35,472 nucleotides of DNA, taken from the IMG/VR virus record IMGVR_UViG_3300038701_001464, positions 1-35,472 of that record. One strand, given 5' to 3'. Origin of the DNA: a virus. Each line of letters starts with the position of its first letter. Position 1 is the stretch's first letter. The notes beneath the pieces were generated by a model that was not told the origin of the DNA, made no database searches, and worked only from the letters and a program-made list of their open reading frames with translations. Shown piece by piece: positions 24,397-35,472 of the stretch. Position numbers and translations under genes: made by a program.

Positions 24397-24625
24397 GATC
24401 ATCAACCTTTAACCCTGCTAATTCCAGCCAGAAAATAACACCTTTTTCAGCCGCCAACTTTGCAAGCTCTTTTGTTGGATGCGATTTTTTTGTTAATCTA
24501 ACACCTGAAAGCTTTAGGCCAACTTTCCAAACTGTGTCGCTTCCCCTTGGTTCAAAAGGCGTATTATCCCAAACCTCGGCAACTATAACCCTGCCAAGTT
24601 TTAAAACACTTCCTTCCCATTTCAT
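24389..24625 (-). CDS. Hypothetical protein
   Basis: A 78-aa protein starting at the ATG at 24625, whose first bases overlap the stop of the XRE gene (ATGA). A longer frame to 24658 lacks a good start. It is beta-rich at first (GSVLKLGRVIVAEVW, KVGLKLSGVRLTKK) with a C-terminal helix (TKELAKLAAEKGVIFWLELAG). Unknown function. Confidence 0.6.
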   Translation of the reverse strand: MKWEGSVLKLGRVIVAEVWDNTPFEPRGSDTVWKVGLKLSGVRLTKKSHPTKELAKLAAEKGVIFWLELAGLKVDDHA

Positions 24626-24828
24626 AACATTCCCCAATCTGCGGGTTTTTTGTCCCAATTCTCCAAGACTTTACAAGCGATAGGATTAGGCGGACGCGAA
24701 CTTTTAACATAGCTGGGCATTTCCCAGCGGCGAATAACAAGCGATGAGCTCATGCCGAGGATTTCGGCGAGCTGGGATTGCGTTAACCCCAGCGCTTCAC
24801 GTTTTGCTTTGAATTGTTCCGGCGTCAT
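24622..24828 (-). CDS. XRE/Cro-type helix-turn-helix regulator
   Basis: A 68-aa protein. Residues ~13-37 are a typical helix-turn-helix (LGLTQSQLAEILGMSSSLVIRRWE) followed by a short C-terminal part (PPNPIACKVLENWDK), the form found in small Cro-like regulators. A promoter-like sequence (25166-25194) lies upstream of the operon segment that includes it. It probably regulates a phage promoter. The target operator is unknown. Confidence 0.75.
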   Translation of the reverse strand: MTPEQFKAKREALGLTQSQLAEILGMSSSLVIRRWEMPSYVKSSRPPNPIACKVLENWDKKPADWGML

Positions 24829-26503: not shown

Positions 26504-26674
26504 TCATTCACATTTCATATAAATATAATCGGCCAGCATTTCTTGATAATGCTTCAACGAAACTTGCAACGAGCTAACGTCACCGGTTGCCATGTTTATG
26601 CGCTCTTTAAGTAAAAAGTTCCGGTGTTTACAATGGGCTATTTTTTCAAGCCTGTACTCGTTGTCACGTTTCAT
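26504..26674 (-). CDS. Hypothetical 56-aa protein
   Basis: A 56-codon frame that starts 11 nt inside the end of the upstream gene: MKRDNEYRLEKIAHCKHRN, then a helical remainder with KERINMATGD and a C-terminal YQEMLADYIYMKCE. Packing with neighbours and codon use are as in real genes. Weak ribosome site (GAG). Unknown function. Confidence 0.55.
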   Translation of the reverse strand: MKRDNEYRLEKIAHCKHRNFLLKERINMATGDVSSLQVSLKHYQEMLADYIYMKCE

Positions 26675-26951
26675 TTTTCTCGGTTATCCCAAGCTGGTTT
26701 GAAAGCTCCCCCATCAAAGCCTCATCAAGCTCTTTCCCCGACCCGATAGCCGGCCCAGCCTCCGATAAAGCTTTGCTTAACCCCTGCGGATTTTCGCCCA
26801 AAATGTTGTTTTTGATATGCCCGCGAACTGATTTCAGTTTAGCAAGGTTTGTTTCAAGCTCGATGATTGCATCATCAATGCCTTTTAAATAAATTGTACT
26901 AGCATCGAATGCACGGTTAAGCTTTTCGCTTTTAATGGGCTCATTTGCCAT
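26664..26951 (-). CDS. Hypothetical coiled-coil protein
   Basis: A 95-aa protein with a central heptad-like helix (YLKGIDDAIIELETNLAKLKSV). No domain recognised. AGGA lies 10 nt before the ATG. It is preceded by a 66-bp gap with two TAGACG-type motifs, so it may begin its own transcript. Confidence 0.55.
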   Translation of the reverse strand: MANEPIKSEKLNRAFDASTIYLKGIDDAIIELETNLAKLKSVRGHIKNNILGENPQGLSKALSEAGPAIGSGKELDEALMGELSNQLGITEKNET

Positions 26952-26994
26952 AATAAAAAATCCTAATTCTATTAATAATAAAGATTACGTAACA

Positions 26995-27012
26995 CGTCTA
27001 TTGGGCGTCTAC
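26995..27012. promoter_or_regulatory. Pair of CGTCTA operator-like half-sites
   Basis: CGTCTA occurs at 26995-27000 and again at 27006-27011, 11 bp apart in the same direction, in the gap before the 95-aa gene. The same motif and 11-bp step occur at the divergent promoter (32960 and 32971), and related sites lie at 29287-29323. On the minus strand no strong -10/-35 pair was found here. Confidence 0.4.
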
Positions 27013-27017
27013 AAGAT

Positions 27018-27203
27018 TTATTTTTGCCTATGCCGTTTTAATTTACGCCCCGACAAATGGAACTTATGGCAAAACGGGCATTTGTAAACATCGACAAATT
27101 GCGGGTTGTTTTTCCGCTTTCTTAAACGACGCTGCACCGCAATGGCCTTATGCTGCTTTTCATAGGATAGCTTGCCGGTGCATTCTGGTTTGATGCCGCC
27201 CAT
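27018..27203 (-). CDS. Small basic zinc-finger-like protein
   Basis: A 61-aa, strongly basic protein (RRLRKRKNN) with a CxxC-type finger near the end: YKCPFCHKFHLSG, with His following. An extra Cys near the N-terminus (PECTGK) could complete the site. The first base of its ATG is shared with the upstream stop (TAATG). A nucleic-acid-binding role is likely. Confidence 0.6.
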   Translation of the reverse strand: MGGIKPECTGKLSYEKQHKAIAVQRRLRKRKNNPQFVDVYKCPFCHKFHLSGRKLKRHRQK

Positions 27204-27484
27204 TAATTTTGCGTCCTTCCACTGCTCCCCAAATCATCGGACTTTACTAATTTAGCCTGTCCGTTTTTAACGTCCTGCTCAACCATCAAATAATAGCTAA
27301 CGACCATCTGCATTAATTCATGAATTGACATTTTGCTACCATGAGCAAAAGAGGCTAAACACATGCAGCACAACGTCATAGCTCCCGACGCTGGATCGCT
27401 TTTATCTTTGGTTAAGGCAATGACCATATCAAGCACCTTGCCCATTTCATCCGACGTTACGACGTTTTCGTTTTCGTCTTTCAT
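27203..27484 (-). CDS. Hypothetical protein
   Basis: A 93-aa protein with a central hydrophobic helix containing three Cys (GAMTLCCMCLASFAHG) and a second helix (ELMQMVVSYYLMVEQDV). Might be a membrane-associated or metal-binding protein, but no family was recognised. Confidence 0.55.
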   Translation of the reverse strand: MKDENENVVTSDEMGKVLDMVIALTKDKSDPASGAMTLCCMCLASFAHGSKMSIHELMQMVVSYYLMVEQDVKNGQAKLVKSDDLGSSGRTQN

Positions 27485-27512
27485 TTTGAGTTATTCCCTT
27501 TTTGTTGCTGGA

Positions 27513-27755
27513 TTAATGGCCAACAGATTTTAAAAGAAAGTCACAAGATCTTGTGAGTAATTCGAGTTGCGCAATGGCTTCATCTCGCTCACGTCTTACT
27601 TTGATCAAACTTGCTTCCAAATTGTTGATTGTTTGCGCTTGAACCTTTGAGCCATCTTCTCGGCTAATCGGCTTAATCATGCATCTATCAAGCTGCAATT
27701 GAAGATACTTAAGCTTTTTTTTCAGCTCTATATTTTCGGCTTTATGCGTCCTCAT
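27513..27755 (-). CDS. Hypothetical coiled-coil protein
   Basis: From the ATG at 27755 (GAGGA upstream, and ATGA overlap with the end of the frameshifted gene) this gives 80 aa, almost entirely helical (AENIELKKKLKYLQLQL; NNLEASLIKVRRERDEAIAQL). A longer frame to 27791 is part of the upstream gene. Unknown function. Confidence 0.6.
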   Translation of the reverse strand: MRTHKAENIELKKKLKYLQLQLDRCMIKPISREDGSKVQAQTINNLEASLIKVRRERDEAIAQLELLTRSCDFLLKSVGH

Positions 27756-27989
27756 ATTAAATCCTCTTTTTGTCTCCAAATTAACACACATTTTTCGATA
27801 GTATGTTTGTCCTCACCCGCATATTCGGGATCGTAGGCCAAAATATCCGCAGCCAATTCTCCTGATGTCCAATCATCAATATCATGACCATTTTCACGGG
27901 CGTTTTGCATAGACTGAACAATGCCCTCGTAAATATCAGGCGGATTTTTTTAAATCATCTTCATCAATAAAAATTGGTCGCACCTTCAT
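27752..27989 (-). pseudogene. Gene with a 1-nt frameshift at an A7 run
   Basis: The ATG at 27989 overlaps the previous stop (ATGA) and opens MKVRPIFIDEDDLKK before stopping after 17 codons. A second frame, beginning at the same A run (minus strand A7, plus strand T7 at 27945-27951), reads NPPDIYEGIVQSMQNAREN then GHDIDDWTSGELAADILAY and ends with a TGA at 27752-27754 that overlaps the next ATG. The total length of 238 nt is 79 codons plus one base, exactly what one extra A would make. With A6 the protein is continuous at 78 aa. Sequencing error, a real mutation, or transcriptional slippage on the A run are all possible. Confidence 0.65.
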
Positions 27990-28267
27990 AATATCCGTCT
28001 CCAAACTTTTTCGCCGTTTTTATATCCGACCATCTGGGGTAAATAGCGAAAATCGGATAAAATATGCATCCCGAGCATTGTTCGACCATCAGGAACGCCC
28101 AAAATAACGTTATAATCTGAAAACCATGCCGGTTTTTGAACCTCACCCCAGCCCGCCGGCAACTCGTCGAATGCAATTGCAGCGCAACGCTTGCCGTCCC
28201 TTGACGCAACTGGAAACTTGCCGCCGTGATTTTCGCTGAATTTATGCCATTCGGGATGATCGCTCAT
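27986..28267 (-). CDS. Hypothetical protein
   Basis: A 93-aa soluble protein (MSDHPEWHKFSENHGGKFP; AAIAFDELPAGWGEVQKP), overlapped by ATGA with genes on both sides. No domain recognised. Confidence 0.6.
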   Translation of the reverse strand: MSDHPEWHKFSENHGGKFPVASRDGKRCAAIAFDELPAGWGEVQKPAWFSDYNVILGVPDGRTMLGMHILSDFRYLPQMVGYKNGEKVWRRIL

Positions 28268-28401
28268 TTCAAAACCTCAAAACAATAAACCTCAGAGAAT
28301 TTGCTTTCGCATTTGGCGCGCGCATCGTTATCGATTACCAGCGTTAACCAAACGGCCGACGCAACAACGATCAAAGCAAGTAAATAAATACGATTAATCA
28401 T
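28264..28401 (-). CDS. Small membrane protein
   Basis: From the ATG at 28401 (ATGA overlap with the upstream stop) this gives 45 aa: one membrane segment (YLLALIVVASAVWLTLVI) and a short exported-looking tail with two Cys. The longer frame to 28476 is a shadow of the upstream gene. Confidence 0.55.
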   Translation of the reverse strand: MINRIYLLALIVVASAVWLTLVIDNDARAKCESKFSEVYCFEVLK

Positions 28402-28775
28402 ATCGGAATAACCTTTGATTTGATTGCGGATACATGAGCGTCGAGTTTTTCGGCTCCAAATACGCTTTCTACCCATAAGAGATGGTCTAGGGCTGCGATA
28501 TTCCAGATTTCTGCACTATCAGGCCATCCGAGCAATAAAGCCATTCTGCGACGATCTGAGGCGGTTTTATCCTGATTTTGCAATCCAAGGCTTACGAGAT
28601 CCGCAAGGGCCGTTGTAAATGACTTGCCACTGAATGCCGCGTGCTCGTTAATTTCGCGCATTTGGGCGGCTGTGAAATATGCCGGCGTCTTGATTTTACC
28701 GTTGCCGCAATCATACCCTCGGACAAAGCGATATTTTACATCGTCGTTGCTGGGCTTAAATTGTTGGTTTGACAT
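28398..28775 (-). CDS. Hypothetical protein with RHH-like segment
   Basis: A 125-aa protein. Residues ~30-66 (KTPAYFTAAQMREINEH, then SGKSFTTALADLVSLGLQN) look like a strand followed by two helices, the outline of a ribbon-helix-helix. AGAGGA lies before the ATG. The rest is helical. A DNA-binding role is possible but not sure. Confidence 0.5.
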   Translation of the reverse strand: MSNQQFKPSNDDVKYRFVRGYDCGNGKIKTPAYFTAAQMREINEHAAFSGKSFTTALADLVSLGLQNQDKTASDRRRMALLLGWPDSAEIWNIAALDHLLWVESVFGAEKLDAHVSAIKSKVIPI

Positions 28776-28983
28776 AAAACATAATCCTCTTGAATTTAAA
28801 TAAATTTGGCAGTTTTTCGCCGTACCAAGGGCGGTTTTAAAGATTTCTACTTTCCTTTTGATTTATTTCGGCACTTCCCCGAACAACGGTTCAAACTCGA
28901 TCATAAACCGGCTGGGATGTTTCCATTGATAGCAAATCGTGCTCCCAGCAACCGCCCCTTTGCCTGAGTTTAAGCTCTATCGC
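28776..28983 (-). other. 208-bp gap with possible degenerate ORF
   Basis: No gene with a start was found. One minus-strand frame is open for 36 codons after a TAG (reading KGAVAGSTICYQWKHPSRF, then MIEFEPLFGEVPK, then TAA) and looks protein-like but has no start codon. It may be a decayed gene. A 7-bp inverted repeat (GCTGGGA 28911-28917, TCCCAGC 28943-28949) shares its sequence with the leader hairpin at 29207-29237. Confidence 0.3.
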
Positions 28984-29181
28984 CTAAAATTGTATTATGT
29001 CACTCGCCTCATACTCAGCATTAACGTTTTCTTTCGTTGGGTCGCACTCGTCACAAAACGGGCTTCCCACTTCCTGAACTTGATGGTTACACAAAGTGCA
29101 ATTTTCACGACAATCAAAGTCATCATCTAGCTCACTGTAATTAAGCGTTTTATTGTTATGCTGCCCTACTGTTTTTACCAT
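28984..29181 (-). CDS. Zinc-ribbon-like small protein, first gene after the leftward promoter
   Basis: A 65-aa acidic protein with five Cys in a zinc-ribbon-like arrangement (CRENCTLC then CDEC). AAGGAATTGGG lies before the ATG. It is the first gene downstream of the promoter at 29284-29312, so it is probably made early. Unknown function. Confidence 0.6.
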   Translation of the reverse strand: MVKTVGQHNNKTLNYSELDDDFDCRENCTLCNHQVQEVGSPFCDECDPTKENVNAEYEASDIIQF

Positions 29182-29206
29182 TTACCCAATTCCTTTCTTG
29201 ATTTAC

Positions 29207-29237
29207 GGCTGGGAACTCCGACGGGTAGCCCCCAGCC
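29207..29237 (-). promoter_or_regulatory. Leader hairpin in the leftward transcript
   Basis: GGCTGGG (29207-29213) and CCCAGCC (29231-29237) form a 7-bp stem with a 17-nt loop in the ~95-nt 5' leader between the promoter at 29284 and the first ATG (29181). Might tune translation or transcript stability. The stem sequence is echoed in the gap at 28911-28949. Confidence 0.4.
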
Positions 29238-29283
29238 CTGCAAAACACCAACTCTTGACGGTTCTTTGTGTTTCGGTAAATCC

Positions 29284-29323
29284 TTTATAGACGTCTATGA
29301 AGGCAAGGTCAATAGACATCTAT
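29284..29323 (-). promoter_or_regulatory. Strong leftward promoter with two operator-like palindromes
   Basis: On the minus strand TTGACC (29312-29307) and TATAAA (29289-29284) are 17 bp apart, each five of six to sigma-70 consensus. A perfect 12-bp palindrome ATAGACGTCTAT (29287-29298) overlaps the -10 box, and a near copy ATAGACATCTAT (29312-29323) overlaps the -35 box edge. This layout fits repression by a small dimeric protein. It would drive the genes from 29181 downward. Confidence 0.75.
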
Positions 29324-29332
29324 CATTTTTTA

Positions 29333-30118
29333 TTAATCATCCGTTTTTGTTACGATTGCCGTATTTGCGAGCTTGCTTGAAACGTCCGAAACCTCACGAA
29401 CTTTAATTCCAGCCGGTTTTTTCTTTTCCGGCTTCCATGTTTCAGATTTTTTAATACCTGACATGTCGCGCTTCAAAAGCCTATTAACGAACTCTTTGCG
29501 CTCTTTCTTATCTTTTTCTGATAATTGAAGCGGCGCAATATCAATCGCATTTCCATAATTATGCCGGCTTGCTTTTTCGTGCTTGCCATCCAAAACGTTT
29601 TCAGCATCTTTAATGACTAACATCTCGCCTTTTACCAGCTGTAAAATATTCCCCTGAATGGGCTTACGGCTGCAATTCGGTCCAGCAAGGTATTTTTTAC
29701 AAGCCTTGTCGATTGCCCATTGAGGATAACCCGAAAGTATATCAATCCAATCTTGCGCAATTGCCGCTGTGATATGCGCGTCTGATTGCATCGTGAAATA
29801 ATGGCTTAACAAAACCAGCACACGCCCCGAGATCCATTCACCGCTCGCCGGCTGCGTCATGTAATCAATATTTTGTTGGATCCGGTCGCGATCTGATTTC
29901 GTTATTTCGTTGTCCCGCGTCCGCAAATCCGTCAGCCATGCTTTGAATAGGGCTGCGTCTGATATTGTTGCTTCCGGCTGTGGTTCCGATGCGCTCGGCT
30001 GCTCGAATAATCCAATTTCTCCACGTTGCATCCCAATCTCGTTTAATTGCGTTTGCTCCACTAGCTCCGAGCCAGTAGTTTTTAAACTTTTCGGCTTCTG
30101 TTCGAATTTGTCCATCAT
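29333..30118 (-). CDS. Replication-associated protein (helicase-loader-like)
   Basis: A 261-aa protein. The first ~60 residues are Gln/Glu/Pro-rich and probably disordered. The middle (~95-170) is helical with SGRVLVLLSHYFTMQSD, WIDILSGYPQWAIDKACKKY and PIQGNILQLVKGEM, resembling proteins found just after replication initiators in many phages. The C-terminus is very basic. AAGGGA precedes the ATGATG at 30118. An alternative ATG at 30031 would shorten it by 29 residues. Its 5' part overlaps the initiator gene in another frame for up to 254 nt. The helicase-loader role is inferred from position. Confidence 0.65.
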   Translation of the reverse strand: MMDKFEQKPKSLKTTGSELVEQTQLNEIGMQRGEIGLFEQPSASEPQPEATISDAALFKAWLTDLRTRDNEITKSDRDRIQQNIDYMTQPASGEWISGRVLVLLSHYFTMQSDAHITAAIAQDWIDILSGYPQWAIDKACKKYLAGPNCSRKPIQGNILQLVKGEMLVIKDAENVLDGKHEKASRHNYGNAIDIAPLQLSEKDKKERKEFVNRLLKRDMSGIKKSETWKPEKKKPAGIKVREVSDVSSKLANTAIVTKTDD

Positions 30119-30737
30119 TCAATCCCTTTTCTCTGGAATACTGTATAAGCTCTTTTGAGAGGTTCCAATCCTCTGAAATTCTAGCACCCTTTTTCGACTT
30201 TGGTTTTTTCGGGGAAATCTGTTTTGCAGATTGACCGTCCAATAAAGACGAAGTCTTTTCGGGTTCGGGTTCGGGTTCGGGTTCGGGTTCGGGGTTTCGA
30301 TAGCCTATCGATAGCCTATCAATCTCATCGATCAAAAGCACATTGTTTTCGCTATACTTGCAGCGCTCTATGTCTTTGAGAACATTAAGTTTTTCAAGGC
30401 AATCTGGCAGGGATAAAGCAAGCTTAATCGCCCCTTGCGCATGTTTTGGGTTAGTAAAAGGGTCAAATTTTAGGAATTGTATCAACCTAACTAGGTTTTC
30501 TACCCTATCGAAAGCGCATAAATACCCTTTGCATAGGCTATCCATAGCCTTTAAATATCGCTTCACGTCCCAATTTAGATCCGCCGTTGCGTACCCATCT
30601 TTTAGAATAAAACAGCCGACCGAATTAACATGCGGGCAAGTATGAAGATACAAATATAACAATTTTGCATCATCTGAAACTTTGCTAAATTTTTGGCTAT
30701 TCCAGATCGATGTTGAAACTTTTCCATAATCACGCAT
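29865..30737 (-). CDS. Phage replication initiator protein
   Basis: From the ATG at 30737 (GGGG 10 nt upstream) this gives 290 aa. The N-terminal ~115 residues are a winged-helix-like replication domain (RDYGKVSTSIWNSQKF, AKLLYLYLHTCPHVNSVGCF, DVKRYLKAMDSL). A linker of EPEPEPEPEPEPEK follows. Residues ~195-255 form a DnaT/DUF1376-type C-terminal domain ending in the pattern DWDATWRNWIIRAAE. It contains the candidate origin repeats (30299-30550) and a six-copy hexanucleotide run. The start at 30764 lacks a ribosome site. Role: bind the origin and load the host helicase with its neighbour. Confidence 0.75.
   Translation of the reverse strand: MRDYGKVSTSIWNSQKFSKVSDDAKLLYLYLHTCPHVNSVGCFILKDGYATADLNWDVKRYLKAMDSLCKGYLCAFDRVENLVRLIQFLKFDPFTNPKHAQGAIKLALSLPDCLEKLNVLKDIERCKYSENNVLLIDEIDRLSIGYRNPEPEPEPEPEPEKTSSLLDGQSAKQISPKKPKSKKGARISEDWNLSKELIQYSREKGLNDGQIRTEAEKFKNYWLGASGANAIKRDWDATWRNWIIRAAERIGTTAGSNNIRRSPIQSMADGFADAGQRNNEIRSRPDPTKY
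30258..30293 (-). repeat. Six tandem TTCGGG hexamers coding for Glu-Pro
   Basis: Plus strand TTCGGG repeats exactly six times, coding for six Glu-Pro pairs in the initiator's linker. Copy-number change would keep the frame and only alter the linker length. Confidence 0.9.
30299..30550. other. Candidate replication origin: ATAGCCTAT iterons inside the initiator gene
   Basis: GATAGCCTATC, an inverted repeat with a central C, occurs twice in tandem at 30299-30309 and 30310-30320. ATAGGCTAT (the same core in reverse) is at 30533-30541 and a partial copy ATAGCCT at 30544-30550. As in lambda O, phage initiators often carry their origin inside their own gene, so these are iteron candidates. No AT-rich melting region was confirmed. 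Confidence 0.5.
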
Positions 30738-30778
30738 AATAAAAAACCCCGCTTTTTCGACCATAAAATAACATTGCT

Positions 30779-30976
30779 TTAATCATCTGATTTTACGCTC
30801 TCGGGTTCCCAGCCGGCGCGAATAGCTTTCAAATGACTGCCAACTGTCAAGCGGCTTAAACCAAGAATTTTCGCGCATTCTTTTTGATTTGAAAATGGAT
30901 TTTTCTGGAAAAAATGCCAAACACGAGCGCGGTTAATATCGCCGTGTTTTTTCATAAACTCGCCTTTTCTGCTCAT
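30779..30976 (-). CDS. Winged-helix/HTH regulator
   Basis: A 65-aa protein with NPFSNQKECAKILGLSRLTVGSHLKAIRAGWEP, a helix-turn-helix (residues ~28-52) with a basic recognition helix. The form MSRKGEFMKKHGDINRARVW is typical of small proteins encoded right before phage replication genes. It probably regulates, or assists, the replication operon. AAAGGA lies before the ATG. Confidence 0.7.
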   Translation of the reverse strand: MSRKGEFMKKHGDINRARVWHFFQKNPFSNQKECAKILGLSRLTVGSHLKAIRAGWEPESVKSDD

Positions 30977-30990
30977 AAAACTTTATCCTT

Positions 30991-31036
30991 TGCATTTTGT
31001 TTATTTATACAAAACATAAAGCGTTAAGGGATGCAA
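30991..31036 (-). promoter_or_regulatory. Weak promoter/operator candidate before the replication operon
   Basis: A 6-bp inverted repeat TTTTGT/ACAAAA (30995-31000, 31009-31014) surrounds a TATAAA -10-like box (31004-31009, minus strand). The nearest -35-like TTGCAT is 20-22 bp away, so the spacing is poor. It follows a terminator, so the downstream operon needs a promoter near here. Confidence 0.25.
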
Positions 31037-31054
31037 GAAAAAAATAAAAGACAT

Positions 31055-31094
31055 AAAAAAACCCTGCCAGCGGGGACGCGTGTTGGCAGGGTTT
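31055..31094 (-). terminator. Strong intrinsic terminator
   Basis: On the minus strand an 11-bp perfect stem (AAACCCTGCCA 31059-31069, TGGCAGGGTTT 31084-31094) with a 14-nt loop runs into a T-rich tract (plus strand A7 at 31055-31061). It ends the transcript of the RHH, RusA and 403-aa genes and separates it from the replication operon. Confidence 0.9.
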
Positions 31095-31169
31095 AGCTCT
31101 AACAGAATTGGGTTTCTTTTTAGAGGGACAAGGGTTTTATATCTTGCCGCCTCTAATTTTGCAAGAGAA

Positions 31170-32381
31170 TTAACCGTTATCCATAGTTTCCCGTTCGCGG
31201 TCGTAACCCTCATTCCACCAACGAGCCTCGTTTGATGCTTTTTTCCAAGGGTTTTTGTCTTTCGGCTTTTCAATTGCCGCCGCATTCGCCCCAGCTTGTC
31301 GCACTTTCTCGATTTGAGCTAGCGCCGCATCATACCCAGCCCGCCATAAGTTGAATGGACCTGTGCCGCCGTCAAATGGGTTTTCATCTGGGCCGGCGTC
31401 ATCGATAGCCGCTTGCGAACCCATGTCGTAAATTTCACGATCACCATCGGACAAATCAGTTTTATCGATTTTATCATCGGCCGCCGGCTGGGTTGCTTCC
31501 ATTTCTTCTTTTGCTGCTTCCGTTGTTTCGGCTGCAAAATCTGAGATGCTTTGATCATCATCGATAATCTCGCCGGTTGCTTGATTGTGCGCCGGTTCAT
31601 CATCAGGCTCTTTGCTAGCATTTTCAGTGCTTACCTGTGCATTTTCGGCCGCTTCGTCATCAGCTATAATAAATTGATATTTGCCTTTTTTATCAGCAGT
31701 CTCAATCAATCCGGCTTTATCAAGTATGTCGATATAATCTACTGCTTTATTATAACCAATATCAAAACGGCGTTGAATAAATGACGGGCCAAACGGTTCA
31801 TTATCCCCCAGCATTTCCATTAAAGTTTCTGCGATGTTCCCGACCGATAACTCTGCGGCTTCTTCTTTTTCAAGCGTCTCGTCTTCATCTGAAAACTCAG
31901 GCTCCGTTTTTTGCTCGGGCTCGTCGAACATTTCCGGCTGATCTTTTTCCGGTTCAATATCCGTCGATTGCTCTTTAAATTTATCAGCATCAACAATAAT
32001 TATTTTTGCGAGCTTGCCGTTGGAATGCTTCATATCAATAAGCATTTTATCGTCAGCTTTGCCCGACGCTGTAATTTTAATTGCTTGCTTGGCAATATCG
32101 AAATCAAACTTATCGAGTTGAACGTGCGCCGCGGTTTGGCCGGCCGTTGCAACAACCTCAACAGCTTTCATAATAATATCGCTTGCCCATTCGTAAGTAT
32201 TATCAATTTCGCGTTGCTGCTCTTTCTCGCTGAGCTGATTATAAGGCTTTAACTCGGTCGCTTTACGGCGCGCATTCAATAGATGATGATGCAAATCGCT
32301 AACTAGCGACGTTACATTGAAGCTCACACTTTCGTTAGTTTCCGCGTCAACTGTTTCGAGAATTGTTTTATTTTTGCCCAT
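31170..32381 (-). CDS. Fusion-like protein with FtsK-gamma winged helix and two RMF-like motifs
   Basis: A 403-aa acidic protein. Residues 1-135 are an unassigned domain (AHVQLDKFDFDIAKQAIKI, SNGKLAKIIIVDADKF). After an acidic linker, residues ~182-238 match the FtsK gamma DNA-binding winged helix: EPFGPSFIQRRFDIGYNKA, VDYIDILDKAGLIE. Residues ~332-353 (NPF....FNLWRAGYDAAL) and ~377-396 (NPWKKASNEARWWNEGYDRE) both resemble the ribosome modulation factor pattern CPY...W..GW..A. The gamma domain in FtsK reads KOPS sites; here it may bind DNA in the phage. AGGA lies before the ATG. The function of the whole protein is unknown. Confidence 0.65.
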   Translation of the reverse strand: MGKNKTILETVDAETNESVSFNVTSLVSDLHHHLLNARRKATELKPYNQLSEKEQQREIDNTYEWASDIIMKAVEVVATAGQTAAHVQLDKFDFDIAKQAIKITASGKADDKMLIDMKHSNGKLAKIIIVDADKFKEQSTDIEPEKDQPEMFDEPEQKTEPEFSDEDETLEKEEAAELSVGNIAETLMEMLGDNEPFGPSFIQRRFDIGYNKAVDYIDILDKAGLIETADKKGKYQFIIADDEAAENAQVSTENASKEPDDEPAHNQATGEIIDDDQSISDFAAETTEAAKEEMEATQPAADDKIDKTDLSDGDREIYDMGSQAAIDDAGPDENPFDGGTGPFNLWRAGYDAALAQIEKVRQAGANAAAIEKPKDKNPWKKASNEARWWNEGYDRERETMDNG

Positions 32382-32749
32382 TTCTGGAATTCCTCTTTTC
32401 TTGTTAGAATTATAACATTGTTATTTGTTGCCCATCTTATTCTATGATCGGCTAAATACCTGTCATCTGGCACTTTGTGCATGCGGACAAGCAAATCATG
32501 AATTGCCTTTGGTGCATTATCGATATCCATATTTGAGACGTTGCACGGGAAAAGTATTTCCGAACGCCAAATAAAATCGGGACATGCACCCGAAACCCCG
32601 AAACCGTCCTGTTGTCTCAACTCATGTTGAGCCAGTGAATACCAATTGCGATACTCCAACGATTTTATAATCGAGTTTCGAACGGGCTTGTTTTGTCGGT
32701 TAATACTTGGCGGCAATTCTGACAAAACAAACCGGCGTACCCTGCTCAA
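32324..32749 (-). CDS. rusA: RusA-like Holliday junction resolvase
   Basis: A 141-aa protein. The pattern LPPSINRQNK near the start, RNWYSLAQ, and the acidic motif DIDNAPKAIHDLL (Asp75, Asp77) followed by VPDDRY (Asp95/Asp96) is that of RusA nucleases, whose catalytic Asp residues sit at these places. The start is a TTG (32749) that overlaps the previous stop by TTGA, with AAGGA about 5 nt upstream. The first ATG would delete the catalytic region. It overlaps the 403-aa gene by 58 nt. Role: resolve branched DNA before packaging. Confidence 0.8.
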   Translation of the reverse strand: MSRVRRFVLSELPPSINRQNKPVRNSIIKSLEYRNWYSLAQHELRQQDGFGVSGACPDFIWRSEILFPCNVSNMDIDNAPKAIHDLLVRMHKVPDDRYLADHRIRWATNNNVIILTRKEEFQKWAKIKQFSKQLTRKLTKV

Positions 32750-32931
32750 TTTTTCCTTTCTTTTTTGCGATCATGTTTTTTATTCATTTCGCGAACCGCT
32801 TTCACGATTGCAAAATTGCGGCCGCGCTTACGGGGTAGCCCCAGATTTTCCGCGGCGTCTCCAACCTCTGACCATTCCTTATCGGTCAATTTGATTGTAT
32901 GCCCCTTTTTTTCTTCTGAATTAATAGACAT
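32746..32931 (-). CDS. Small RHH-like candidate repressor
   Basis: A 61-aa basic protein: a short strand (HTIKLTDKEWSEV) followed by two helices (GDAAENLGL, NFAIVKAVREMNKK), the outline of an Arc/MetJ-type ribbon-helix-helix. AAGGGTG lies upstream. It is the first gene left of the divergent promoter region at 32951-32991, where TAGACG-type half-sites occur, so it could be the protein that binds them and represses itself and the leftward promoter at 29284. This role is inference. Confidence 0.5.
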   Translation of the reverse strand: MSINSEEKKGHTIKLTDKEWSEVGDAAENLGLPRKRGRNFAIVKAVREMNKKHDRKKERKN

Positions 32932-32950
32932 TTTTCACCCTTATTTTTAG

Positions 32951-32991
32951 TTGACAAGACATCTAATAAACGTCTATAAGACGCTTGTAAA
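32951..32991. promoter_or_regulatory. Divergent overlapping promoters with shared operator sites
   Basis: Plus strand: TTGACA (32951-32956), 18 bp, TATAAG (32975-32980), for the exonuclease operon. Minus strand: TTTACA (32991-32986), 17 bp, TATTAG (32968-32963), for the RHH gene. CATCTA (32960-32965) and CGTCTA (32971-32976) are 11 bp apart in the space between, overlapping both promoters. Together they form a possible two-way switch. Confidence 0.7.
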
Positions 32992-33031: not shown

Positions 33032-33778
33032 ATGATAAAAGTTCCAGACTGGCAAGAAATAACCAAAATCAATGGCGCTGACCATTATTTTAACTTGCTG
33101 CAAAAGACTGATGAATGGCATTCGTTAAGAGCTGGGATTATTACCGGCTCAACAATGAAGCTTATTCTTAGCCCAAAACTCGCCGTTGCAAACAACGAGA
33201 AATCGCGCGCTCATTATTTTGAATTGGCGGCTGAAAGATTGTTTTCAGTCCCGACCGATCATTTTCAATCTTACGATATGAGACGCGGCGAAATTGAAGA
33301 GGATTTGGCTAAAAATATCTATGAGCGCGAATATGCGCCAATCAAAGATTGCGGCTTTATCATCAAAGATATTGACGGCGTGAAGGTTGGCTTTTCGCCT
33401 GATGGTCTTGTCGGCGATGAGGGAATGCTCGAATGCAAATCAAAGCTTTCTAAATTGCAAATCCGCAACATTTATGAGCACATGGTTAATCATGATGAAA
33501 CGCCAATCCCTAAAGAGGATATGTTGCAAGTTCAGTCCGGTCTATTGGTGAGCGGTCGCAAATGGTGCGATTATTTGAGCTATAGCAACGGCGTAAATCT
33601 GGCAATCATTCGCTGTTACAAAATTGAAGAATATCAGGACGCCATTGTTGAGGCTGCAAAAGAAGCTGAGAAAAAAGTTTCTGATATTGTTGAGAAAACA
33701 AAAGATCTAATCGACAACCCAAAATCTCGTATTTTTCCTGTCGAATGGATCGATCACCATGAGGATATCATAGCATGA
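33032..33778 (+). CDS. YqaJ/lambda-type 5'-3' exonuclease
   Basis: From the ATG at 33032 (GGGG 6 nt upstream) this gives 248 aa. Motifs of the YqaJ recombinase family: DEWHSLRAGIITGS near residue 27, GEIEEDLA (Glu90), GFSPDGLVG (Asp124), LECKSK (Glu134, Lys136) and MLQVQSGLLVSG (Gln167). These give the metal-binding catalytic set. A TTG at 32999 would leave almost no leader and has no ribosome site. Role: resect double-stranded DNA for phage recombination. It is followed by an unknown 199-aa gene with an ATGA overlap. Confidence 0.85.
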   Translation: MIKVPDWQEITKINGADHYFNLLQKTDEWHSLRAGIITGSTMKLILSPKLAVANNEKSRAHYFELAAERLFSVPTDHFQSYDMRRGEIEEDLAKNIYEREYAPIKDCGFIIKDIDGVKVGFSPDGLVGDEGMLECKSKLSKLQIRNIYEHMVNHDETPIPKEDMLQVQSGLLVSGRKWCDYLSYSNGVNLAIIRCYKIEEYQDAIVEAAKEAEKKVSDIVEKTKDLIDNPKSRIFPVEWIDHHEDIIA

Positions 33779-34707: not shown

Positions 34708-35472
34708 ATGACAAACGAAACTCTAATTGAATTATCCGACGCCGAAAAAGCAAATCTTTTTAAAAATGATGAAATGCTGAAATTGGTTTTAAACCGCATC
34801 AAAACAAAAGCGGCGGAACATAAACCAGACATTACAACAACAGCCGGCCGCGAAAAAATCCGCTCACTTGCCGCCGGCATTGCTCGCACCAAAACAAAAT
34901 TAGATGATCTGGGCAAAAAAGAAAAAGAGGCCGCTCAAAAAATCGTCACACAAGTTGATGCGACTAGACGGACAATTAAGGCCGATCTGGATAAGCTCAA
35001 AGCAACAACGCGCCAACCGCTAACAGATTATGAAGACGAGCAAGAGCGCTTAGATAATGCTGTTATTGCAGATCTTGACGCATTGGCCGCGATTAAAAAC
35101 ATTCCATTTGGCGCGACAACGGAATTGATTAACGAGCGCATTCAAGAGTTAGCATCGATCTGCCGGCGCAATGATTGGCGCGGGAAAGATGAGCAAGCCG
35201 ATATCGCAATCGATGCGGCCGAAACTGCCCTCAAAAGCGCGCAAGATCATATCGAGCGTGAACTTGCGGAAAAAGCAAAACGCGAAGAACAAAACCGCCT
35301 TGCTGAAATTGAAGCCGACAAGCGCCGGCAACAAGAGGCCGAAATGCGCGCCGAAAATGAACGTTTGCGGGCCGAAGCCGAGAAAGCGAGGCAAGAGGTC
35401 GACGAAAAAGCGCTAGAAATCGCCAGAATTGCCGCTGAGCGAGATAAAGCGGTTAGAGCTGAGCAAGAGCTC
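34708..35472 (+). CDS. DUF1351-like coiled-coil protein, N-terminal part (continues at 1-366)
   Basis: The ATG at 34708 follows AAAGGA. The frame is open to the right edge, 255 codons here and 333 in the closed circle. The N-terminal ~120 residues resemble the DUF1351 pattern found near phage recombination genes (a helix with AGIARTKTKLDDLGKKEKE, then TTRQPLTDYEDEQERLDNAV). From about residue 170 it is a long charged coiled coil. The last three codons shown are probably edge errors. A Gam-like role (protecting recombination ends) is possible but not shown. Confidence 0.7.
   Translation, partial: MTNETLIELSDAEKANLFKNDEMLKLVLNRIKTKAAEHKPDITTTAGREKIRSLAAGIARTKTKLDDLGKKEKEAAQKIVTQVDATRRTIKADLDKLKATTRQPLTDYEDEQERLDNAVIADLDALAAIKNIPFGATTELINERIQELASICRRNDWRGKDEQADIAIDAAETALKSAQDHIERELAEKAKREEQNRLAEIEADKRRQQEAEMRAENERLRAEAEKARQEVDEKALEIARIAAERDKAVRAEQEL
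35346..35469. repeat. Right copy of 124-bp terminal overlap
   Basis: Identical to bases 3-126; see the left copy. It marks the closure point of the genome. Confidence 0.9.

Follow-up and report, generated by a model that had tools for sequence, protein, structure and literature searches.

Several ribbon-helix-helix (RHH) proteins bind as dimers to arrays of short DNA boxes, among them MetJ (PMC4239095), omega (PMC4803016), and RelB (PMC2812701). MetJ, which has been described for gamma-proteobacterial groups, binds contiguous 8-bp boxes with the consensus AGACGTCT (PMC4239095). R1 ParR uses 11-bp repeats (PMC9426499), and type Ib RHH proteins also act as repressors (PMC5016525). In the Pant promoter of phage P22, which we read directly, TTGACA is followed by the annotated Arc operator ATGATAGAAGCACTCTACTAT in the spacer and then by TATATT. 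Here we describe a set of short boxes, and a gene for a 61-aa protein beside them, in the virus record IMGVR_UViG_3300038701_001464, which was analyzed over its whole length of 35,472 bp (the window). Judged from the sequence, the shared motif is most likely the operator of an autorepressor encoded by this phage, and the 61-aa protein is the most likely candidate for that autorepressor. We propose, with a probability of about 0.6, that the protein is an RHH dimer that represses its own operon, the divergent YqaJ operon, and two more leftward units, and that this serves as an early shut-off in lytic growth like that of P22 Arc.

Shared boxes over three control regions

An earlier note on this DNA had proposed an operator motif common to three control regions. 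All of its sites are present where it placed them. They are a perfect palindrome at 29287-29298 and its near copy at 29312-29323 (region M), CATCTA at 32960 and CGTCTA at 32971, 11 bp apart (region D), and CGTCTA at 26995 and 27006, also 11 bp apart (region L). The boxes, the promoters assigned by consensus match, and the candidate repressor gene are as follows.

32955..32966, + strand: box D1, core AGACATCT at 32957-32964 (7/8), directly behind the rightward -35
32966..32977, + strand: box D2, ATAAACGTCTAT, core at 32968-32975 (7/8), ending at the -10 of both divergent promoters
32977..32988, + strand: box D3, core AGACGCTT at 32979-32986 (6/8), overlapping the rightward -10 and touching the leftward -35
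29287..29298, + strand: box M1, ATAGACGTCTAT, a perfect palindrome filling the spacer beside the leftward -10
29312..29323, + strand: box M2, ATAGACATCTAT, touching the leftward -35, 25 bp from M1
26990..27001, + strand: box L1, TAACACGTCTAT, core ACACGTCT (7/8)
27001..27012, + strand: box L2, TTGGGCGTCTAC, core GGGCGTCT (6/8), 11 bp from L1, overlapping a putative -35
32951..32980, + strand: putative rightward promoter TTGACA-N18-TATAAG, predicted to drive the YqaJ operon
32963..32991, - strand: putative leftward promoter TTTACA-N17-TATTAG, predicted to drive the 61-aa gene
29284..29312, - strand: putative leftward M promoter TTGACC-N17-TATAAA
26986..27014, - strand: weak leftward L promoter candidate TTGTAG-N17-TACGTA, with a poor -10
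32746..32931, - strand: gene for the 61-aa candidate RHH repressor, first in the leftward operon, with a Shine-Dalgarno (SD)-like AAGGG before its ATG

The boxes, their pitch, and their overlap with promoter-like hexamers are read directly from the sequence, and the boxes and their pitch are far commoner than in shuffled sequence. With at most one mismatch, the palindrome ATAGACGTCTAT occurs at three sites (29287 itself, 29312, and 32966), compared with a mean of 0.033 in 60 dinucleotide shuffles. Two CRTCTA pairs were observed at +11, against 0.007 expected (1000 shuffles). We also scored AGACGTCT-like 8-bp boxes, with a threshold of a summed score of at least 13 of 16, and found three pairs at an 11-bp pitch against 0.0375 expected (400 shuffles). 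Region L has such boxes at 26992 and 27003, and region D has a run of three at this pitch (32957, 32968, and 32979), where the earlier note had seen two; none of the 400 shuffles produced such a triple. M1 is not independent evidence because the consensus was derived from it, whereas the 11-bp pairs in D and L are independent. When a matrix was made from the 29.3-kb sites alone, 32966 ranked third (score 14.5, with the next at 9.9) and 26990 about eleventh. The pair at 26.99 kb is therefore the weakest of the three regions, with imperfect boxes and a poor promoter. The same matrix ranked fourth the sequence ATAGACATTTTT at 32924-32935, which covers the 61-aa gene's start codon; this is perhaps a weak extra box, or a chance match.

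The boxes also keep a fixed relationship to the promoters. In four putative promoters (M, both in D, and the weak one in L), the sequence ATARACGTN ends exactly at the -10, in the same register. Read 5' to 3', TTCATAGACGTC precedes TATAAA in M, CTAATAAACGTC precedes TATAAG in the rightward D promoter, CTTATAGACGTT precedes TATTAG in the leftward D promoter, and CCAATAGACGTG precedes TTACGT in L. These promoters are consensus matches; in a promoter scan of the region, promoter-like sites were not in excess over shuffled sequence. The -35 elements are covered or touched by D1, D3, M2, and L2. Because the two -10 hexamers of region D flank D2, this single palindromic box is common to both divergent promoters, one of which is the 61-aa gene's own. 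Boxes over -10 and -35 elements are arranged in this way for a repressor that acts by excluding RNA polymerase.

The 61-aa candidate repressor and its closest known parallels

By our pattern judgement, the 61-aa protein (MSINSEEKKGHTIKLTDKEWSEVGDAAENLGLPRKRGRNFAIVKAVREMNKKHDRKKERKN) consists of a strand, a helix, a G-turn, and a second helix, in that order, and a hand alignment places DNA-facing-type residues at T12, K14, and T16. A single-sequence AlphaFold (AF2) model has a mean predicted local distance difference test score (pLDDT) of 70, with a core of about 70-85, a disordered N terminus, and helices at 17-29 and 34-59 after an extended stretch; dimerization would be needed for the strand to form. 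In a Foldseek search, the top PDB matches were mostly RHH proteins (AtaR, Rv0298, VapB, PutA, KacA, CopG, NikA, and CdbA among them), although each was nonsignificant (E > 1, template modeling score 0.4-0.5). From the pattern, this weak model, and its matches, the 61-aa protein is quite probably an RHH protein. The RHH-like outline claimed earlier thus holds as a strand-helix-helix pattern with weak structural matches, and not as a sequence or family match. That this protein is what binds the boxes seems somewhat less assured, though still more likely than not.

P22 Arc, by analogy, is most likely the system that the 61-aa protein works like. Both are small phage proteins with a strand-helix-helix outline and with overlapping divergent promoters, and in both cases an operator, putative here, lies in the spacer right behind TTGACA and reaches the -10. 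In contrast, the P22 operator ATGATAGAAGCACTCTACTAT has inverted TAGA/TCTA, whereas here there are palindromic boxes in direct 11-bp repeats. The promoter geometry is a very close parallel to P22, but the half-sites are not the Arc-type ones of the earlier comparison; palindromes with a met-box core are directly repeated instead. The P22 genes form a bicistronic arc-ant unit opposed by Mnt, whereas the partners here are YqaJ and RusA-like genes. MetJ shares the core AGACGTCT and repeated boxes across divergent genes (metJ/metB), but its boxes are contiguous at 8 bp, as in E. coli metJ-metB, where we read four boxes at 8-bp steps directly, and not 11 or 25 bp apart as here. MetJ is also a 105-aa protein that depends on S-adenosylmethionine, and the 61-aa protein has no detected similarity to it. 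By the tests that we made, the 61-aa protein falls outside both the Arc and the MetJ families. Lambdoid Cro is a functional analogue, as the product of an early gene that lowers transcription from both divergent early promoters in lytic growth; unlike the RHH-like candidate here, it is a helix-turn-helix (HTH) protein opposed by cI. In Acetobacter phage phiAX1 (L005 37812-37895), repeated TACCAAWWTGGTA-like boxes separate two divergent Arc-type genes, which makes it a further case of a divergent RHH control region in a phage, although its operator differs.

Several results weigh against an RHH autorepressor that acts through these boxes. Searches of Pfam, PHROGs, NCBIfam, and PDB sequences gave nothing that matched the 61-aa protein, and RHH_1 was empty at E values up to 10. 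A profile of Arc, Mnt, and the phiAX1 proteins gave no hhalign alignment with it. No relatives were found in viral contigs, in 84,980 genomes searched with a peptide pattern, or in 385 Alphaproteobacteria. No alignment went into the AF2 model, which is of a monomer. At 25 bp, the spacing of the M boxes departs from the 11-bp pitch, and region L has a poor promoter. Finally, the protein and the motif are both missing from the relatives.

The scans behind this last point also yielded no homologues of the 61-aa protein in annotated phages or in 50 related virus records. Two alphaproteobacterial matches (E 0.009) were rejected because they lie inside long unrelated frames. Neither a further near-palindrome nor a CRTCTA pair at 11 bp turned up in 1.86 Mb of loci related by portal or YqaJ or in another 0.36 Mb, mainly of prophage loci in genomes, and the motif is peculiar to this phage among the scanned DNA. 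A search of viral contigs with the M operator-promoter pattern found only L095, an unrelated contig with a chance match at a tRNA-like sequence.

If the protein does act on these boxes, the circuit would be simple. Promoter activity, the RHH fold, binding by the 61-aa protein, and repression are steps that we infer. Each palindromic box of about 8-12 bp (core AGACGTCT) would take one dimer. In region D, the three boxes at 11-bp spacing would lie on one face of the DNA and be occupied side by side, and occupation of D2 would block RNA polymerase at the promoters of the repressor and YqaJ together. In region M, two near-perfect boxes that touch the -10 and -35 would serve, whereas the two imperfect boxes of region L, 11 bp apart, would need cooperativity. 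Upon infection, the early promoters would fire and the repressor would accumulate from its own early operon until, by negative feedback, it lowered the expression of this operon and also of the nuclease operon and of the units behind the M and L promoters. A bolder version, which we regard as possible but doubtful, is that an undescribed RHH family with met-box-like boxes at an 11-bp pitch has replaced cI/Cro and controls the whole early program from the box common to both -10s.

The logic of self-repression is well known; the DNA motif and the protein are new. If the proposal is right, an uncultivated phage has a very compact early shut-off circuit that needs just a 61-aa protein and a box of 8-12 bp, one copy of which acts on both promoters of a divergent pair, and an orphan family would be added to the RHH repressors. 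The strong M palindromes and the weak tandem L boxes would also be a natural test of whether box quality trades off against 11-bp cooperativity. Most specialists would probably see a neat variant rather than a surprise.

Other explanations for the boxes

The alternative that survives best is that the boxes are operators of another regulator, either the Xre-like protein (24622-24828), the winged-helix-like protein (30779-30976), or an unrecognized phage or host protein. The Xre-like protein matches Pfam HTH_3 (E 1.7e-5) and phrog_7950, a phage repressor family (E 2e-11), and the small winged-helix-like protein has an HTH signal, so that family matches back both of them better than they back the 61-aa protein as RHH. 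Palindromes are also bound by classic HTH dimers. However, no box of at least 7/8 lies upstream of either gene, whereas the array is on the promoter of the 61-aa gene. HTH dimers usually need operators of about 14-20 bp, and the repeating unit here is at most 11 bp. We consider this explanation unlikely. The 68-aa Xre/HTH_3 protein is encoded within the leftward small-gene block, well away from the divergent promoters. An imperfect inverted repeat, TTTTGT...ACAAAA (30995-31025), precedes the winged-helix-like gene and is possibly that regulator's own operator, distinct from the AGACGTCT boxes.

A variant of our proposal shares its binding part but makes the 61-aa protein a lysogeny or immunity repressor, in a bistable switch with an opposing factor. 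In RHph_I3_18 and ppBjS10J-1, which are related to this virus via the portal, the early blocks are separated by divergent repressor/HTH genes (RHph_I3_18 also has an integrase), and the RHH-like gene occupies the corresponding junction here, between leftward and rightward early genes. On the other hand, PF00589, PF00239, and PF00717 (integrase, serine recombinase, and S24-type repressor) had no match in the genome, nor did the ParA-type ATPase AAA_31, for which a control search worked. The genome is probably circular and complete at about 35.35 kb, because the contig ends carry an exact 124-nt direct repeat (3-126 = 35346-35469) and an open frame appears continuous across the joint after the overlap is collapsed. 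The 61-aa gene also shares its early operon with genes for recombination, and what lies opposite it is a nuclease gene, not a Cro gene. We favor lytic shut-off over a lysogeny switch because the integrase, serine recombinase, S24, and ParA matches are absent, and because shut-off is the better fit for a single autorepressor that has no regulator opposing it. The switch proposed in the earlier note, in the bistable sense, is thus unsupported and in our view less likely than another regulator. Its remark that a classic cI is missing agrees with the lack of S24-type matches, but a short Xre-type protein (24622-24828) is encoded, and classic HTH repressors are therefore not absent from the genome.

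It is more improbable again that the motif is a promoter element (an early-promoter consensus) or an activator site instead of a repressor operator. The exact register of ATARACGTN at four -10 elements is what such an element would show. However, the spacers are a normal 17-18 bp, so the geometry is not MerR-like, and no sigma factor or RNA polymerase was among the genome's matches. The additional boxes over -35 elements, in other registers, and the palindromes would be needless for a promoter element. An extended -10 is disfavored by the lack of TGn.

The boxes are very improbable as a partition centromere (ParR/ParG/omega type) of a plasmid-like prophage, with autorepression secondary. The 11-bp repeats of R1 ParR, the repressor activity of type Ib RHH proteins, and the lack of an integrase match would suit it, and R1 ParR-parC and omega/ParG do resemble this locus in having RHH dimers on short direct repeats and autorepression. 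However, no ParA-type ATPase was found (the ParM-type search, StbA_N, gave no match, and neither did its control), and there are just two or three boxes per site, over three promoters. Host MetJ was rejected as the binder because of the pitch; MetJ is described for gamma-proteobacterial groups and binds contiguous 8-bp boxes (PMC4239095), whereas the structural relatives of this phage are mainly from Rhizobiales. A toxin-antitoxin pair was rejected because the neighboring gene looks RusA-like rather than like a toxin.

Neighboring genes and genome setting

The genes around the three regions are as follows.

32324..32749, - strand: gene for a RusA-like resolvase, which overlaps the last bases of the 61-aa gene (weak match, E ~0.005)
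31170..32381, - strand: gene for a 403-aa protein with FtsK_gamma and RMF-like stretches, third in the 61-aa gene's unit
31055..31092, - strand: terminator-like hairpin and U-run (-20.7 kcal/mol, z -3.8), with an A-run on the opposite side (31055-31100 overall)
33032..33778, + strand: YqaJ-family exonuclease gene, the first gene rightward, ATG with SD-like AGGGG
28984..29181, - strand: gene for a 65-aa cysteine-containing protein, first behind the M promoter, no family match
26664..26951, - strand: 95-aa gene behind the L promoter, no assigned function

The hairpin is likely the terminator that closes the unit of the 61-aa, RusA-like, and 403-aa genes, an order read from the sequence. The early genes diverge, one set leftward from 32931 and the other rightward from 32999 or 33032; the ATG at 33032 is the better YqaJ start because of its SD-like AGGGG. 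The structural genes are oriented leftward, and by a provisional gene list noncoding DNA makes up 2.2 kb of the 35.5 kb. Relatives found through the portal, with a best identity of about 50%, are phages and prophages, chiefly of Rhizobiales, and neither the 403-aa gene nor YqaJ has close viral relatives. The pairing of FtsK_gamma and RMF-like stretches in the 403-aa protein is odd, and its distant matches are only in Pseudomonas phages. At 30258-30299, tandem GGTTCG units encode a Pro-Glu repeat between the two domains of a DnaD-like helicase loader.

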